Notes under the pieces: model-generated | The model's database searches: none | Seen by the model: the letters and a program-made list of their open reading frames with translations, nothing else | What the model was told of the DNA's origin: nothing | Assembly: GCA_944323685.1 (NCBI GenBank) | Contig: CALUTJ010000009.1 | Span: forward strand, 1-64,000 | Length of the DNA stretch: 64,000 nt | Source of the DNA: Candidatus Gastranaerophilales bacterium | GTDB lineage: Bacteria > Cyanobacteriota > Vampirovibrionia > Gastranaerophilales > Gastranaerophilaceae | Direction: 5' to 3' | Program-made: the position numbers and the translations under genes | Shown here: in pieces, positions 35,245-42,919 of the stretch | Layout: each line of letters begins with the position of its first letter | Position numbering within the stretch: position 1 is the stretch's first letter

Positions 35245-35348
35245 GGTTCTCTCCTTAAAATGTAAATTCTCTAACAGGCTAATCATAACATATCATTGTA
35301 TTTTTTAATTTGGTTGGGGTATATTTAAGTTTAAACGAGGAAGAAATT

Positions 35349-36347
35349 ATGAACCAATTACAACAAACTGTTCTATTTGTAATCGATGACTTAGAGCTTA
35401 AATATTTTGAGTTTAACGATTTAGTAACTAATTTCTGGTTAATAAAAGAGCTTTTAGAAAGAGGCTTTGAAGTTTTTATCACGGTAAAAAACAAATTGTT
35501 TACCGAAAATGAAACTGCAAAAACTATATGCTGGCAGGCTTATGTTAAAGATAACAATATTTTTTACAAAAAAGAAGAGCCGAAAGAGTATATTATAGAA
35601 CACTTCGACGTGGTATTCTTCCGTCCCGACCCGCCGGTTGATATCGATTACATAAATGCTTGCCATGTGTTTGACTATGTTGATACGGAAAGAACGGTGA
35701 TGATTAACAATCCCGTTGCTGTCAAAAACTTTAACGAAAAATTCCACCTGAATTATTTCAACCGGTATGCGCCTCAAAACCTTGTGACGGCAGATGCTGA
35801 CAAAATAAAAAGTTTTGTACGTGAACACAAAAAAGCCATAATAAAACCCTTAAACAGATGCTTTGGCAGCGGGGTTTATTATCTTGATACGGAAGAAAGA
35901 AACATAAATGCCATAATCAAGAACCTTACAAATGAAGGCAAAACCATGGTTATGGTGCAGGAATACATTGAAGAAGCCGCACATGGAGACAAAAGGATAC
36001 TTATTTTAGGCGAGCATGTCTTTGACGAGTGTATATTAAAACTCCCCGGCAAAGACGATTTTAAATTCAGTGTCCATTCCGATAAGTATTTTGAAACGGC
36101 AGCCCTCACAGAAGATGAAAAGAAAATGGCACAGGAGATTGCTAAATACCTTAATTCTGTAGAACTGTACATGGTTGGGCTTGATGTTGCAGGCGGAAAG
36201 ATTATGGAAATTAATGTAACAAGCCCGTGTTATTTTATCAGAGAAATAAACGCCCATAACCGCGAAAAATTTCAAGATAAGCTTATGGACAAATTGATAG
36301 AACTTATTGAACTTAAACAAGGAAAAGTACCTGCTTCTTTATGCTGA
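35349..36347 (+). CDS. gshB: Glutathione synthetase (ATP-grasp)
   Basis: 332 residues from ATG 35349 (GAGGAAG upstream). Visible: the N-terminal VLFVIDDLELKYFEFNDLV, DVVFFRPDPPVDIDYINA, NNPVAVKNFNEKFHLNYF, the ATP-grasp strand KAIIKPLNRCFGSGVYYL, VQEYIEEAAHGDKRILIL, and the metal-binding end GLDVAGGKIMEINVTSPC. This matches bacterial GshB, which joins gamma-Glu-Cys and Gly. 'GDKRILIL' and 'EINVTSP' are the family's diagnostic segments. It overlaps gshA by seven bases, so the two are translationally coupled. Confidence 0.9.
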   Translation: MNQLQQTVLFVIDDLELKYFEFNDLVTNFWLIKELLERGFEVFITVKNKLFTENETAKTICWQAYVKDNNIFYKKEEPKEYIIEHFDVVFFRPDPPVDIDYINACHVFDYVDTERTVMINNPVAVKNFNEKFHLNYFNRYAPQNLVTADADKIKSFVREHKKAIIKPLNRCFGSGVYYLDTEERNINAIIKNLTNEGKTMVMVQEYIEEAAHGDKRILILGEHVFDECILKLPGKDDFKFSVHSDKYFETAALTEDEKKMAQEIAKYLNSVELYMVGLDVAGGKIMEINVTSPCYFIREINAHNREKFQDKLMDKLIELIELKQGKVPASLC

Positions 36348-37711
36348 AACAGTCATCTGTAAATTTTGAAGAAAATCTGCTTGCCGATGGAACCCGACTA
36401 ACCGAAATATTCTTTTCTGGCTGTAAAACGTCTGATGTAATCGCGCAAAAAAGAGTCGGGGTTGAGTTTGAAAAACTGCCGGTTTGTAAAAATGATTTTA
36501 AAGCCGCGCCGTACTATCAGATTGCAAAATTTTTAAACTCTTTAAAAACAAAACATCCCCGCCGGTTTGACGATATATGTGAGAATAATGCCTTACTCGG
36601 GCTTGTCTCTGATGACGGCGTGATTACTTTAGAGCCGGGGTCACAAACTGAATTAAGCTTAAAACCGCTTGATAGTATTGATAAAATATCTGCAATAATT
36701 AAAAACTACAATAAAGTTACTGCACGCTTAGCGCAAGAACAAGGAATACTCTGGCTCGGGTGCGGAATACAACCCGTGTCGACTTACCGGAATATTAATA
36801 TAATTCCCAAAAAACGTTATGAATATATGACAAAATATCTGCCGTCTGTTGCCAGAAAACCGCTTGTTATGATGAGAGAAACAGCCGGTATTCAAGCAAG
36901 CTTTGATTATGCAAGTGAAGAAGACGCAATGAAAAAATTTGCATTTGCTCTGAAATTATCGCCTTTTATCAGTGCAGCATTTGCCAATTCTCCTATCAGA
37001 AACGGCAGACTGACAAAATTTAAGTCAAACCGTGCAGCAAGCTGGCTTGAAACAGACAATGACCGTTGCGGGCTTGTAAGTTCTAAAATTTTTTGCGGAG
37101 AGTTTTCTTTTGAGCAATATTCTCAAATCTTGCTGGATGTGCCTATGATTTTTATCGAGCGTGTTATAAACGGGACTAAAAAGGCAATAAAGGTAGAAAA
37201 TTTGACTTTCAGACAGTTTATAAAAAACGGATATGAGGATTTTTGTGCAACTAAAGAGGATTGGGAAACACATATCAGCCTGTATTTTCCCGATGTAAGA
37301 TTTAAAACATACATAGAAATAAGAAATCATGACAATCAACGGGAAGATTTGATTTGTTGTGTTCCTGCATTATGGAAAGGGCTTTTGTATAATGCAGATG
37401 CTATGTCTGCTGTTTTAGATATCTTAAAACCTCTAACATATTTCGATTTTGAATATGTGAGGAGAAAAACGCCAAAATGCGGTTTGGATATGAAAATCAG
37501 ACATATGGCGATTAAAGATATTGTGAGGGAAATAACGGATATTTCTTATCAAAGCCTGAAAAGTTTTGCACAGGGAGAAGAAAAATATCTGGAGCCTTTG
37601 AAGGAATATACGGATAATGGGCTTACTCCTGCCGACCTTGTAATACAAAAATACAACAGGGATTGGAATTGTAATTTGTTGAAATTTGTAGAATATACTG
37701 CTTTAAAATAG
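36341..37711 (+). CDS. gshA: Glutamate--cysteine ligase, GCS2 (plant/proteobacterial) type
   Basis: 456 residues. Segments typical of the GCS2 family: VGVEFEKLPVCKNDF near the N-terminus, TLEPGSQTELSLKPLDS (glutamate/ATP site), GILWLGCGIQPVSTYRNINIIPKKRYEYM, MMRETAGIQASFDYASEEDAMKKF, FANSPIRNGRLTKFKSNRAASW, and YIEIRNHDNQREDL near the C-terminus. The enzyme makes gamma-Glu-Cys from Glu, Cys and ATP, the first step to glutathione. This type is found in plants, alpha-proteobacteria and cyanobacteria, unlike enterobacterial GshA. Coupled to gshB through a seven-base overlap. Confidence 0.88.
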   Translation: MLKQSSVNFEENLLADGTRLTEIFFSGCKTSDVIAQKRVGVEFEKLPVCKNDFKAAPYYQIAKFLNSLKTKHPRRFDDICENNALLGLVSDDGVITLEPGSQTELSLKPLDSIDKISAIIKNYNKVTARLAQEQGILWLGCGIQPVSTYRNINIIPKKRYEYMTKYLPSVARKPLVMMRETAGIQASFDYASEEDAMKKFAFALKLSPFISAAFANSPIRNGRLTKFKSNRAASWLETDNDRCGLVSSKIFCGEFSFEQYSQILLDVPMIFIERVINGTKKAIKVENLTFRQFIKNGYEDFCATKEDWETHISLYFPDVRFKTYIEIRNHDNQREDLICCVPALWKGLLYNADAMSAVLDILKPLTYFDFEYVRRKTPKCGLDMKIRHMAIKDIVREITDISYQSLKSFAQGEEKYLEPLKEYTDNGLTPADLVIQKYNRDWNCNLLKFVEYTALK

Positions 37712-37832: not shown

Positions 37833-38093
37833 ATGGAAAAAGAAAAAGAAAACACAAAAACTATTACCATTAAAGTTTGTATGGGCAGCTCCTGCTTTGC
37901 AAGAGGTAACGCTGCTAACCTTGATTATATCGAAAAATTTGTTAAAGACCACGGATTGGATGCAAAAATTGATGTTGTCGGCAGCAGATGCGAAAACAAC
38001 TGCGCAGTCGGCCCGAACGTTATTATTAACGGCGAAAATTGCGAATCAGCATCACCTGTTAGATTGGAAGCAATTCTCAAAAAATATTTATAA
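37833..38093 (+). CDS. Thioredoxin-like [2Fe-2S] ferredoxin (NuoE C-terminal type)
   Basis: 86 residues. VCMGSSCFARG at about 15-25 gives the C-x4-C pair and GSRCENNCAVGPNVIING gives the C-x3-C pair: the four ligands of the [2Fe-2S] cluster of thioredoxin-like ferredoxins such as the NuoE/HydC C-terminal domain. These pass electrons between NAD(P)H, ferredoxin and hydrogenase modules. It opens the hydrogenase locus, with a good AAGGATAAG site upstream. A second such protein (41197-41457) sits before the other hydrogenase, so each hydrogenase has its own partner. Confidence 0.88.
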   Translation: MEKEKENTKTITIKVCMGSSCFARGNAANLDYIEKFVKDHGLDAKIDVVGSRCENNCAVGPNVIINGENCESASPVRLEAILKKYL

Positions 38094-38106
38094 TTTAGGA
38101 TTTTAA

Positions 38107-38134
38107 AAGCCTGCCGTCATAAAATGGCAGGCTT
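38107..38134 (+). terminator. Hairpin after the first 2Fe-2S gene (partial terminator or processing site)
   Basis: AAGCCTGCC (38107-38115) and GGCAGGCTT (38126-38134) are perfectly complementary with a 10-base loop, but only GCTTAT follows, not a full T-run. It may reduce read-through and not stop it. Confidence 0.5.
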
Positions 38135-38224
38135 GCTTATACTTTATCGGCAGACTATAAAACATTAACGCTATTTTAATAGTGCCTGTTTTCTTAACAA
38201 AATAAATTAATAAGGGGTTATTAA

Positions 38225-39973
38225 ATGAACAGCCAGTATCCTATATATACACTTCAAAACGAGTGCGTTGACTGCTACAAATGCGTGCGACAGTGCAGCA
38301 TGAAAGCTATCCGTATAGAAAACGGACACGCGTCAGTTATTCCGGAAAAATGCATTGCCTGCGGTCACTGCGTGCTTGTATGCCCGTCAGAGGCTAAAAA
38401 AATAAGAAACGATATAAACAGAGCCCGCGCAGTACTTACTGCTAAGGAACGTGTTTTTGTCTCTCTTGCACCGAGCTGGGCAGGATACTGGGAATGCGGC
38501 AGCGAAAAACTCATATCGGCGATTAAAAAACTCGGATTTGAAGGAGTCTCTGAAACCGCTCTCGGCGCACAGGAGGTGTCTATCGAGGTTACAAAAATCC
38601 TTTCGCAGCGCGATAATAAAATTCATATCTCCAGCGCCTGCCCTGCTATTGTTGATTACGTAAGACTCTACATGCCGGAATACACAAAATACATTACGCC
38701 TGTGGGTTCACCGGCAATGACACACGCAAAACTGTTAAAGCAAAGATACGGTAATGATATAGGGGTAGTGTTTGTCGGCCCTTGTATAGCCAAGAAAAAC
38801 GAAGCAGACCGAAACCCCGACCTTATTGATGTTTCTTTGACCTTCCACGAACTTTCTCAGTGGCTTGCTCAGGAAAATATAGAAACAGAAAATATAGAGC
38901 TTGCGGACGACGTAAGATTTGTGCCTAAAAAAGCCTATGAGGGCGCTTATTACCCTATAGAAGGCGGAATGAATAAAACAATCAGGCTATCAGGCTGCGC
39001 CAAAGATATTCAGCTTGTTAGCGTAAGCTCTATCCCTGCATTTAAAGATTCTCTGACAAATCTTGAACCGGAAAATCTTAAAAGCACAATATTTATAGAG
39101 GCTCTTGCCTGCCCCGGCGGCTGTGCCAACGGCCCTTGCAAAGACCCGTCAAAACCCGGTGTAATAACAATGTCTGATATCTTAAAAACCGTTAAATTAA
39201 GAGATGATATTCCGACAGAACCCGAGGTTGTTGTTGAAAAAGAATACCGCGAACATCCGCAAAACACTAAAAAATACACGCCTGAAGAAATAGCTGAAGC
39301 TATGGCAAGAATAGGCAAACACGGTGCAGAAGATGAACTCAACTGCGGCGGCTGCGGCTATGACACCTGCCGTCAGCTTGCGGAAGCACTGCTAAACGGT
39401 GACGCCGAGCCTTCTATGTGCGTATCATACATGCGAAAACTCGCAATAAGAAAAGCCAGCGCAATGCTGCGTTCTATGCCGTCGGCTATTGTTATGGCTG
39501 ATGCTGATTTGAATATTCTTGAAACCAACGAGGCGTTTGTCAGAATGTTTGCGCCCGACCTTCTCGAACTCTTTAACGGCCGGCCGGAAGGGCTTGCCGG
39601 CGGCGCGCTGGATAGAGTTGTTCCGTTTACCGATTTGTTTAAACGTACTTTAAAATCAGGTAAAGATATCCATAAAGAGCGTTATCCAATAGGCAAAAAT
39701 CTCTATGACATTGCCGTTTTTGAAATTGAACGCAACAAGTTTGTAGGCGCCGTTATAACAGACGTTACACAAACGGAAATGAAACGCGAACAAATCGCTA
39801 AAAAAGCCCACGAGGTAATCGAAAAGAATATTGCCACAGTGCAAAACATTGCCTGCCTGTTAGGAGAGCATATGGTAGACACTGAATTGTTGCTGAGCCA
39901 GATTGCGCAAGGGTATGAGGACAATCAGCCGGAAACTGAAGACTCTGAAATTACGGAGAATGGAGAAAAATAA
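38225..39973 (+). CDS. hydS: Sensory [FeFe]-hydrogenase-like protein with PAS domain (group C type)
   Basis: 582 residues. Two ferredoxin clusters near the N-terminus (CVDCYKCVRQC, CIACGHCVLVC), then the H-cluster domain: SSACPAIVDYV (first motif, lacking the second Cys of T-S-C-C-P), FVGPCIAKKNEAD (second), and EALACPGGCANGPC (third). A further CGGCGYDTC with a later Cys (PF04060-like Fe-S domain) lies at about 376-384, and a PAS-like domain at about 420-520 (MPSAIVMADADLNILETNEAF). This order is that of the sensory hydrogenases thought to couple H2 or redox state to signalling. It shares one base with the SpoIIE phosphatase gene, so the two are tightly coupled. Confidence 0.88.
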   Translation: MNSQYPIYTLQNECVDCYKCVRQCSMKAIRIENGHASVIPEKCIACGHCVLVCPSEAKKIRNDINRARAVLTAKERVFVSLAPSWAGYWECGSEKLISAIKKLGFEGVSETALGAQEVSIEVTKILSQRDNKIHISSACPAIVDYVRLYMPEYTKYITPVGSPAMTHAKLLKQRYGNDIGVVFVGPCIAKKNEADRNPDLIDVSLTFHELSQWLAQENIETENIELADDVRFVPKKAYEGAYYPIEGGMNKTIRLSGCAKDIQLVSVSSIPAFKDSLTNLEPENLKSTIFIEALACPGGCANGPCKDPSKPGVITMSDILKTVKLRDDIPTEPEVVVEKEYREHPQNTKKYTPEEIAEAMARIGKHGAEDELNCGGCGYDTCRQLAEALLNGDAEPSMCVSYMRKLAIRKASAMLRSMPSAIVMADADLNILETNEAFVRMFAPDLLELFNGRPEGLAGGALDRVVPFTDLFKRTLKSGKDIHKERYPIGKNLYDIAVFEIERNKFVGAVITDVTQTEMKREQIAKKAHEVIEKNIATVQNIACLLGEHMVDTELLLSQIAQGYEDNQPETEDSEITENGEK

Positions 39974-41148
39974 TGGCAGAAAAATCCTTCTTTGTTGATA
40001 TTGACTGTTTTCAGCAGAAAAAGCACGGGCAAAATACTTTCGGAGACTGTTTTAAATCCAAACGTTTTACTGACGAAGGCCGCCTTCTTGCCGTATTATC
40101 CGACGGATTAGGCAGCGGGATTAAGGCAAATATCCTTGCCACAATGACTGCTACAATGATTTTAAAATTTATTGAAGAAGGCAAAGATATCTTAAAAGCC
40201 ACCGAAGTTATTATGAACTCTCTGCCAGTTTGTCAGGTCAGAAAGATTAGCTACTCAACATTTTCCGCTTTCGAATGCTCGGACGAGGGCGAGATAAAAA
40301 TCGTTGAAGAGGGCAACCCCGATTTTATCCACATAAGAAGCGGTCGGCTCGTCGAACATACTCCGAGAATTGTTACCTCAAAAAAATTTACAAACCGCCA
40401 CATGCATTTGTATAACTTTAAACTCGAACCCGAAGACAGGCTTATCTTTTGTTCTGACGGGGTTACGCAGGCCGGCATGGGTACAGATGAATATAAATTG
40501 GGCTGGCGCCGCGAAGGACTCATTGAGTTTGCAGAAAGTGAAATAAAACGCGACCCGTCTATCTCGAGCCGCCACCTTGCAATGGAAATTGTTAAAGAAG
40601 CCATACGAAAAGAACCCGACCATCAGGCAAAAGACGATGTATCCGCCCTAGTTTTGTATTTCAGACAGCCGAGAAAACTCCTTATCTTTACAGGCCCTCC
40701 ATACAGACAGGACAGAGACGCCGAATACGCAAAAATCTTTGATGACTTTGACGGAAAAAAAGCGATTGTCGGCGGCACTACTGCAAACCTTGTTGCAAGA
40801 GAACTCGGGCGGGAAATTACAACAGAAAAATATAATAAGGGGATGCTGCCGGCATGTTCGCATATGGACGGGGTTGACCTTATCACGGAAGGGATTTTAA
40901 CTCTCACCAAAGTGCTTGAATACCTTAACGAAGGCTATGACCGCTGGCCGGATGATGCCGCAGGAAGGTTGATTGAACTTTTGCTGGACTCCGATGTTAT
41001 CAATTTTATGATAGGTTCAAAGCTTAATCAGGCGCATTACGACCCTGATTTGCCGTTAGAGTTGGAGATTCGTAAAAATGTTGTAAAACAACTGGAAAAA
41101 ATTTTATCAGGACGTTATATTAAAAAGGTAAACCTCAGGTTTATTTGA
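39973..41148 (+). CDS. SpoIIE-type PP2C serine phosphatase linked to the sensory hydrogenase
   Basis: 391 residues. The PP2C-like domain occupies about 1-230: LLAVLSDGLGSGIKANILA (the metal-binding 'SDGxGxG' motif), LIFCSDGVTQAG, and DHQAKDDVSALVLYF at the end of the domain. The last ~160 residues (from LLIFTGPPYRQDRDAEY) form a separate domain of unknown role, with KAIVGGTTANLVARELG and NFMIGSKLNQAHYDPDLPLELEIRK. No membrane span. Its ATG overlaps the stop of the sensory hydrogenase, which suggests that the sensor controls this phosphatase. Substrates (perhaps anti-sigma antagonists) are not visible in the window. Confidence 0.88.
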   Translation: MAEKSFFVDIDCFQQKKHGQNTFGDCFKSKRFTDEGRLLAVLSDGLGSGIKANILATMTATMILKFIEEGKDILKATEVIMNSLPVCQVRKISYSTFSAFECSDEGEIKIVEEGNPDFIHIRSGRLVEHTPRIVTSKKFTNRHMHLYNFKLEPEDRLIFCSDGVTQAGMGTDEYKLGWRREGLIEFAESEIKRDPSISSRHLAMEIVKEAIRKEPDHQAKDDVSALVLYFRQPRKLLIFTGPPYRQDRDAEYAKIFDDFDGKKAIVGGTTANLVARELGREITTEKYNKGMLPACSHMDGVDLITEGILTLTKVLEYLNEGYDRWPDDAAGRLIELLLDSDVINFMIGSKLNQAHYDPDLPLELEIRKNVVKQLEKILSGRYIKKVNLRFI

Positions 41149-41196
41149 CGGAATTAAAGAATTTCAGACACCACCTAATTTTAAAGGGAGAACTAA

Positions 41197-41457
41197 ATGA
41201 CTGACGGAAAAATATTGTTAGAATTATGTTTCGGCACAACATGTTTTGTTATGGGAGCATCAAAGCTACAGGAGATAGAATCAATACTCCCCCCGCAATA
41301 TAAAAATAAAGTGGAAGTTAAGGCTCATACCTGCCTTGATTTGTGCAAAAACGCAACATATATGAAAGCTCCCTTTGTAAAACTTGACGGTGAAATAATT
41401 TCTGAGGCAACTGTCGAAAAAATACTTAAAGCAATAGAAAGAAAGATTGATGGATAA
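41197..41457 (+). CDS. Second thioredoxin-like [2Fe-2S] ferredoxin
   Basis: 86 residues with LCFGTTCFVMG (C-x4-C) and HTCLDLCKNA (C-x3-C), the same cluster pattern as the protein at 37833 but clearly diverged from it. AAAGGGAG ribosome site. The stop codon overlaps the start of the group-B-like hydrogenase by eight bases, so it is translationally coupled and is presumably the electron partner of that enzyme. Confidence 0.87.
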   Translation: MTDGKILLELCFGTTCFVMGASKLQEIESILPPQYKNKVEVKAHTCLDLCKNATYMKAPFVKLDGEIISEATVEKILKAIERKIDG

Positions 41458-42919
41458 CAGCAATACTACACACATAAAGCGTGAAGTACTGGTTAGACTT
41501 ATTCATGCTTTTATAAATCAAGAAATGGGCAATATAAGAGAACTGCCTTTTCAAATGCGTCCAAAAAACGGCGAAGCACCTTACAGATGCTGCATTTATA
41601 AAGAAAGAGCAATTCTTCGCCAGAGAGCAATTGCAGGGCTTGGCTTGAGTGTTGAAACAGATGATGAGATGACATCTTTAAATACTTATGCACAAAAAGC
41701 AATGGAAAGAACAGCGCCTGAAAAAGAGATTTTAACAGTTGTTGACGCCGCCTGCAAAGGCTGTGTGCCAAGTCGTGTTTATGTTACCGAACTATGTCAG
41801 GGCTGTGTCGCAAGACCGTGCGTTTCTACCTGCAAATTCGGCGCAATACAAATTAAAGACGGACGCTCTGTTATAGACGGCGACAAATGTAAAAACTGCG
41901 GTATGTGTATGCAGGTTTGCCCGTATAGCGCTATTGTAAAACTTAAAGTTCCGTGTGAAGATGCCTGCCCTGTCGGTGCAATCCACAAAAACGAGATGGG
42001 ACACGCTGTTATAGACTTTGATAAATGTATTAGCTGCGGTGCCTGCGTAGGCGCATGTCCGTTTGCGGCCGTACATGAAAAAAGTCAGGTTATAGATATT
42101 TTAAAAGAAATGAAAGCCGGCAAAAAGGTTGTGGCAATGGTTGCACCGGCAATCGTCGGACAGCTGCCGGTTTCTGTAAACAAAATTGCTCAGGCACTGA
42201 TTGAAGCAGGCTTTTCAGAAGTGTTTGAAGTCGCTCAGGGGGCTGACACTACAGCAAGAACGGAAGCCGAAGACTTTAAAGAAAGAATGGAGCGCGGCGA
42301 CGAGTTTATGACAACATCGTGCTGTGCGGCTTATAACGAGCTTGTTGAAAAACATATACCCGAGCTTAAACCCTTCCGTTCAGAAACAAGAACGCCTATG
42401 TATTACACGGCAAAATTTGTCAAAGAACAGTATCCAGACTGCGTGACAGTTTTTGTGGGGCCGTGTGTTGCAAAGAGAAAAGAAGCCCAAAAAGAAGAAT
42501 ATACAGACTATGTAATGAACTTTGAAGAAATGGGCGCTTTGTTTGTCGCTTTGAATATTGAAGTTGCAAACTGCGAGGATTACCACTTTGCAAATGAAGC
42601 CTCAAAAGAAGGCCGAAACTTTGCAATAACAGGCGGGGTAGCAGAATCCGTTAAGGTTGCATTAAAAGACTTCCCTGAACTGTTCCCGACCTGCGTAAAC
42701 GGTTTAAATCCAAAATCTGTTAAAGACCTTAAAAACTGGGCTAAAAAAGGACAGTGCAGCGAGGGTAACCTTGTTGAAGTTATGGCGTGCGAGGGCGGCT
42801 GCGTTGCAGGTTCTGCCTGCTTGAACAACAAACGTATCACAACCAAAAAAGTTCAGGCTTATGCAGGCGAAAGCAAATGCATAAACGATTTGCCGGAGAT
42901 TGAACCTAAAACAAAATAA
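41450..42919 (+). CDS. [FeFe]-hydrogenase, group B-like
   Basis: 489 residues from ATG 41450 (a TTG three bases earlier is less likely). N-terminal ~100 residues are unusual, with RHAFINQEMGN-like helices, then cysteine-rich CKGCVPSRVYVTELCQGC and CVARPCVSTC, CKNCGMCMQVCP, CEDACPVGAI and CISCGACVGACP: several [4Fe-4S] clusters. The H-cluster motifs are TTSCCAAYNELVEKH (T-S-C-C-A where A/P varies), FVGPCVAKRKEA and EVMACEGGCVAGSAC, all with the bridging and ligating cysteines. It should be catalytic for H2 production or uptake. Maturases (HydE, HydF, HydG) are not in the window. Confidence 0.92.
   Translation: MDNSNTTHIKREVLVRLIHAFINQEMGNIRELPFQMRPKNGEAPYRCCIYKERAILRQRAIAGLGLSVETDDEMTSLNTYAQKAMERTAPEKEILTVVDAACKGCVPSRVYVTELCQGCVARPCVSTCKFGAIQIKDGRSVIDGDKCKNCGMCMQVCPYSAIVKLKVPCEDACPVGAIHKNEMGHAVIDFDKCISCGACVGACPFAAVHEKSQVIDILKEMKAGKKVVAMVAPAIVGQLPVSVNKIAQALIEAGFSEVFEVAQGADTTARTEAEDFKERMERGDEFMTTSCCAAYNELVEKHIPELKPFRSETRTPMYYTAKFVKEQYPDCVTVFVGPCVAKRKEAQKEEYTDYVMNFEEMGALFVALNIEVANCEDYHFANEASKEGRNFAITGGVAESVKVALKDFPELFPTCVNGLNPKSVKDLKNWAKKGQCSEGNLVEVMACEGGCVAGSACLNNKRITTKKVQAYAGESKCINDLPEIEPKTK

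Follow-up and report, generated by a model that had tools for sequence, protein, structure and literature searches.

A gut Gastranaerophilales (Melainabacteria) genome with a probable hydrogenase control cluster of the hydS/hfs type

The closest described counterparts of the locus reported here are the hydS/hydA2 cluster of Ruminococcus albus 7 and the hfsABCD operon of Thermoanaerobacterium saccharolyticum, T. thermosaccharolyticum and C. thermocellum. The R. albus cluster (RUMAL_RS17365-RS17385), recovered from plasmid pRUMAL01 by tblastn of plasmid records, reads rex, adhE, phosphotransferase, 2Fe-2S, 2Fe-2S, HydS, SpoIIE, group B hydrogenase; it falls 111-fold in co-culture, and a role of its PAS domain and phosphatase in H2 sensing has been proposed (PMC6776011). 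In the hfs operon, by published description, hfsB encodes an [FeFe] hydrogenase with a PAS domain, hfsC a homologue of serine phosphatases and hfsD a ferredoxin-linked hydrogenase resembling R. albus HydA2 (PMC11837493, PMC5707799). When hfsA/B are deleted, adhE expression and ethanol yield go up; removing all four genes has a different effect (PMC5707799). That H2 sensing is passed to the phosphatase is the standing hypothesis for such clusters, backed by knockouts and co-culture transcriptomes, which do not amount to proof (PMC6776011, PMC5707799, PMC11837493).

The window analysed here is a stretch of 64,000 nucleotides on contig C9 of a 2.31 Mb, 99.7% complete genome from a gut Gastranaerophilales (Melainabacteria) lineage, a relative of cyanobacteria. 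An earlier note on this window had described five same-strand genes, including a PAS-containing hydrogenase overlapping a PP2C phosphatase by one base, two separate 2Fe-2S partners and a group-B-like enzyme, and this layout is borne out by the coordinates, profile matches and alignments, with all five genes found on the + strand:

37833-38093, + strand: FdA, an 86-aa thioredoxin-like [2Fe-2S] protein resembling the NuoE/HydC C-terminal part (Cys16, 21, 53 and 57, read from the sequence)
38107-38134, + strand: a hairpin between FdA and HydS with an 11-pair stem and a short T-rich tail, a possible terminator or attenuator
38225-39973, + strand: HydS, a sensor-type [FeFe] hydrogenase of 582 aa, assigned by profile matches, alignments and a structure model
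39973-41148, + strand: PP2C/SpoIIE-family protein phosphatase of 391 aa, assigned by PF07228, a fold match and alignment
41197-41457, + strand: FdB, a second 86-aa 2Fe-2S thioredoxin-like protein (Cys11, 16, 47 and 51; PF01257 just under cut-off)
41450-42919, + strand: HydB, a group B monomeric [FeFe] hydrogenase of 489 aa (TIGR04105; L1 motif TSCCAAY, both cysteines kept)

The HydS and PP2C frames share a single base (39973, within TAATG), while FdB runs 8 bases into HydB; the HydB start was set at the better ATG, 41450, an in-frame TTG also being present at 41447.

Like the window, the R. albus 7 cluster carries two small 2Fe-2S proteins, a PAS-containing HydS, a SpoIIE phosphatase and a TIGR04105 group B hydrogenase (577 bits) in one directon, and the HydS and phosphatase genes overlap in both. 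It differs from the window in that rex, adhE and an APH-like phosphotransferase gene lie upstream and hydS follows both 2Fe-2S genes. The window HydS aligns with that of R. albus 7 (32.6% over 96%), as does the phosphatase with its SpoIIE counterpart (30.6% over 90%). Monoglobus has the same core, but with one 2Fe-2S gene. HfsA is described as aligning poorly with any known protein, and the window has two NuoE-like 2Fe-2S proteins instead. With HydS, a SpoIIE-type phosphatase and a group B hydrogenase encoded side by side, the locus is, on sequence grounds, a member of the known hydS/hfs-type clusters, and because it matches those of R. albus and Thermoanaerobacterium it is mostly an ordinary one.

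In 22 of 22 loci of named genomes (L034-L055) all five genes are present and in unchanged order, an arrangement far beyond chance. Loci whose phosphatase is 88-97% identical belong mostly to Candidatus Gastranaerophilales, an order in Candidatus Melainabacteria. In a class-wide sample, full-length HydS occurs in 47 of 146 genomes, all 47 in the window's family; order-level relatives with both phosphatase and HydS were also seen. The spacing between HydS and PP2C is -1 in 17 of the 39 loci measured. The flanks are less constant: none of the 22 relatives' loci showed gshA next to the cluster, and the genes downstream of the window cluster turned up in only one of them. Directly upstream of the cluster (window 35310-37711), in a host presumed to be a fermentative anaerobe, are genes for an ATP-grasp protein like glutathione synthetase and for a glutamate-cysteine ligase of the plant/cyanobacterial type (GCS2, TIGR01436-like); in relatives, neither gshA nor gshB was found next to the cluster. 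As a separate observation, the G+C of HydS (0.451) is the highest among the 42 long ORFs of the window (mean 0.380, sd 0.032), and that of the phosphatase (0.430) and HydB (0.435) is also high, which could reflect either acquisition or stronger constraint.

HydS consists of two [4Fe-4S] motifs, the H-domain, a C-terminal [4Fe-4S] site, a PAS domain and a C-terminal helix. Its Pfam matches include Fe_hyd_lg_C (E=5e-45) and an FeS domain (E=4e-11), with PF04060 matching at the C-terminal FeS motif. The PAS match of the window protein is weak (PAS E=0.001, PAS_8 E=0.0014, both below the Pfam cut-off); PAS_8 was matched in all 35 HydS relatives, and the predicted structure has a PAS-like order of strands and helices at 420-513 (pLDDT about 70). 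Across the 35 relatives, the H-cluster cysteines C139, C187, C296 and C300 are invariant, as are C374, C377, C382 and C399 of the C-terminal Cx2Cx4Cx16C site, a motif taken as defined in PMC8163306. The L1 motif is SSACP, aligned to the TSCCP of solved hydrogenases. The earlier note had the second Cys of the first H-cluster motif missing, as expected for slow sensory forms, and here the assignment has to be reversed: the first Cys, corresponding to the proton-transfer residue C299 of CpI, is replaced by Ala, while the second, cluster-binding Cys is retained, and all 51 HydS sequences (window and relatives) carry SSACP. By sequence, then, HydS is a sensor-type [FeFe] hydrogenase with an intact H-cluster site that lacks the proton-relay Cys.

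Loss of the relay Cys is typical of group C sensors without being universal. Published group C sequences have Ala at this position in about 43% of cases and Cys in 17% (PMC10055695), and R. albus HydS has SSCCH, keeping the relay Cys where the window has SSACP; the loss is therefore common yet not group-defining. Since R. albus HydS keeps both cysteines, slow turnover by way of Cys loss is not a trait shared by these clusters. The window protein has the group C (M2f) features, namely the H-cluster cysteines, the Cx2Cx4Cx16C motif, a PAS domain after the FeS site and the lost relay Cys. Thermotoga maritima HydS (group C, M2f) likewise has Ala at the relay position (A131 in TmHydS), a C-terminal FeS site and a PAS domain (PMC10055695, PMC8163306). 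The residues framing the diiron site differ between the two: Ser and Gly occupy the two Met positions in TmHydS, whereas the window HydS has, by alignment, Leu294 and Thr166, nearer the group D pattern (PMC8163306). The group D (M2e) enzyme TamHydS of Thermoanaerobacter mathranii shares with the window HydS the Cx2Cx4Cx16C site and a Leu plus a hydroxyl residue at these positions (PMC8163306). Group D enzymes have no PAS domain, in contrast to the window HydS, and membership in that group was ruled out on this point.

Alternatively, HydS might be mainly a redox partner with a catalytic role: as a slow hydrogenase it would adjust H2 or ferredoxin jointly with HydB and the two 2Fe-2S proteins, and the PAS domain and the phosphatase would act on enzyme activity post-translationally, not on transcription. 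Deletion of hfsB in T. saccharolyticum raises hydrogenase activity, and adhE expression alone cannot explain the enzyme changes (PMC5707799), which agrees with such a role, as does the lack of a transcription factor gene in the five-gene block. Transcripts do change, however, when hfsA/B are deleted (PMC5707799), and a part in catalysis sits poorly with the missing proton relay Cys of HydS, so that we regard this account as unlikely.

The phosphatase matches SpoIIE (PF07228, E=5e-14) and is the one SpoIIE phosphatase in the host genome. Residues D25, D44, G45, D162, G163, D221 and D222 are invariant in the alignment of relatives. The predicted structure (pLDDT 85.8) gave its best fold matches to 3pu9 (Z 25.2) and to SpoIIE of B. 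subtilis, 5ucg (Z 24.0), the whole-model matches mostly spanning residues 5-234. The protein thus appears to be a PPM-fold phosphatase with all the metal-binding Asp residues expected for the family. Beyond this fold, residues from about 235 to 391 form an extra C-terminal alpha/beta region that is well conserved and for which no Pfam match was found. No relatives of the phosphatase were found in the viral contigs searched.

The known substrates of SpoIIE/RsbU-type phosphatases are STAS proteins. A phosphatase domain of this type is what one would expect if PP2C worked by partner switching, that is, by dephosphorylating a STAS anti-sigma antagonist and thereby freeing a sigma factor for the hydrogenase genes. 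The earlier note had proposed a look for anti-sigma antagonist targets elsewhere, and this search, run genome-wide, did not support them. In the 99.7% complete genome, the search for an RsbW/SpoIIAB-type anti-sigma kinase gave two HATPase_c_2 matches, both in large proteins and neither above cut-off; STAS_2 gave none. There are two STAS matches in the host genome, one of them in a frame of 546 aa that was taken, because of its length, to be a SulP-type transporter. The other (L086:1477-2361) is a fusion of a response-regulator receiver (REC) and a STAS domain, the sole soluble STAS protein, with an Asp, judged by eye, at the usual position of the acceptor Ser.

The distribution of this REC-STAS protein also runs against partner switching. 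It is full length in the window's genus and in genomes G024 and G037, and in G024 no phosphatase relative was found; in six cluster-bearing genomes of the family (G023, G027, G028, G031, G034, G035) only the receiver domain was matched. The protein does not co-occur with the cluster, being absent from most of the cluster-bearing relatives tested. Partner switching is therefore largely disfavoured, and we give it very little probability. Because its parts are missing or unsuitable, the target of the phosphatase more likely lies outside the STAS system. A fuller version of this idea is put forward only tentatively: the SpoIIE-type phosphatase, under the H2-sensing hydrogenase, would work independently of the STAS/anti-sigma system, perhaps on hydrogenases or fermentation enzymes themselves, and its C-terminal region 235-391 would choose the target.

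As for a kinase counterpart of the phosphatase, the one clear Hanks kinase lies on another contig near a DNA-methyltransferase-like gene, and was rejected as showing no link to the cluster. In R. albus pRUMAL01, the gene for the APH-like phosphotransferase (L102:6703-7452) separates adhE from the 2Fe-2S genes, and its product may be the kinase that counters the phosphatase there; no such gene was seen in the window cluster.

Of the two small 2Fe-2S proteins, FdA matches PF01257 above cut-off (E=3.7e-9) and FdB falls just under it (E=3e-5, 24.3 bits vs 24.8); both align together with the 2Fe-2S pair of R. albus. HydB scores 522 bits against TIGR04105, for which the curated cut-off is 450. Its first H-cluster motif reads TSCCA where TSCCP is usual (SSCCP in R. 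albus), and TSCCAAY is fixed in 22 of 22 close relatives. HydF, for maturation, is encoded in the host genome, and a third [FeFe] hydrogenase, a trimeric bifurcating-type HydA, lies beside a HydB-like flavoprotein gene on contig C27 (L001) of the same genome.

The terminator-like hairpin ahead of HydS, which the earlier note does not mention, raises the possibility that FdA has a separate, or partly its own, transcript. The gap between FdA and HydS ranges from 12 to 206 nt across the loci measured. The longer gaps in the window's genus usually contain a hairpin, and about half of the congeners have a strong one; in other genera, most loci with gaps of 12-60 nt lack it. From the sequence, FdA may be transcribed at least partly on its own.

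Hydrogenase output might also be set mainly by a Rex-type NADH/NAD repressor, the HydS-phosphatase pair regulating something else. The host genome encodes one Rex-like protein, and rex lies within the R. albus cluster. Rex-like operators are nevertheless about as frequent in the window as expected (20 vs 17), with none at the cluster promoters, although the operator form searched may not be that of this lineage, and we consider control of this kind highly improbable.

The account that we favour, with fair confidence, is that the locus is a hydS/hfs-type hydrogenase control cluster in which the state of HydS is relayed to the phosphatase and sets the group B hydrogenase. HydS would bind H2, or respond to the redox state of ferredoxin, and turn over slowly. 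Its cluster state would reach the neighbouring phosphatase via the C-terminal region and the PAS domain, probably through direct contact between the two proteins. The phosphatase would then dephosphorylate a Ser/Thr protein and in this way alter how much of the ferredoxin-linked group B hydrogenase is present or how active it is, and perhaps do the same for fermentation enzymes. The two small 2Fe-2S proteins would probably serve HydS and HydB as electron donors or acceptors. The earlier suggestion that H2 or redox state controls a phosphorylation switch that sets hydrogenase output stands in part: by analogy, it matches the published hypothesis for such clusters and fits the conserved block, but the anti-sigma target attached to it is unsupported.

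The finding places a putative H2-sensing cluster of the Ruminococcus/Thermoanaerobacterium type in gut Melainabacteria. Earlier papers on these bacteria, in the parts accessible to us, describe FeFe hydrogenases and mention no sensory cluster. With only one SpoIIE phosphatase and no partner-switching genes that could be recognised as a set, the gene content of this host narrows the question of what HydS signals to, and the target probably lies outside the usual class of substrates.
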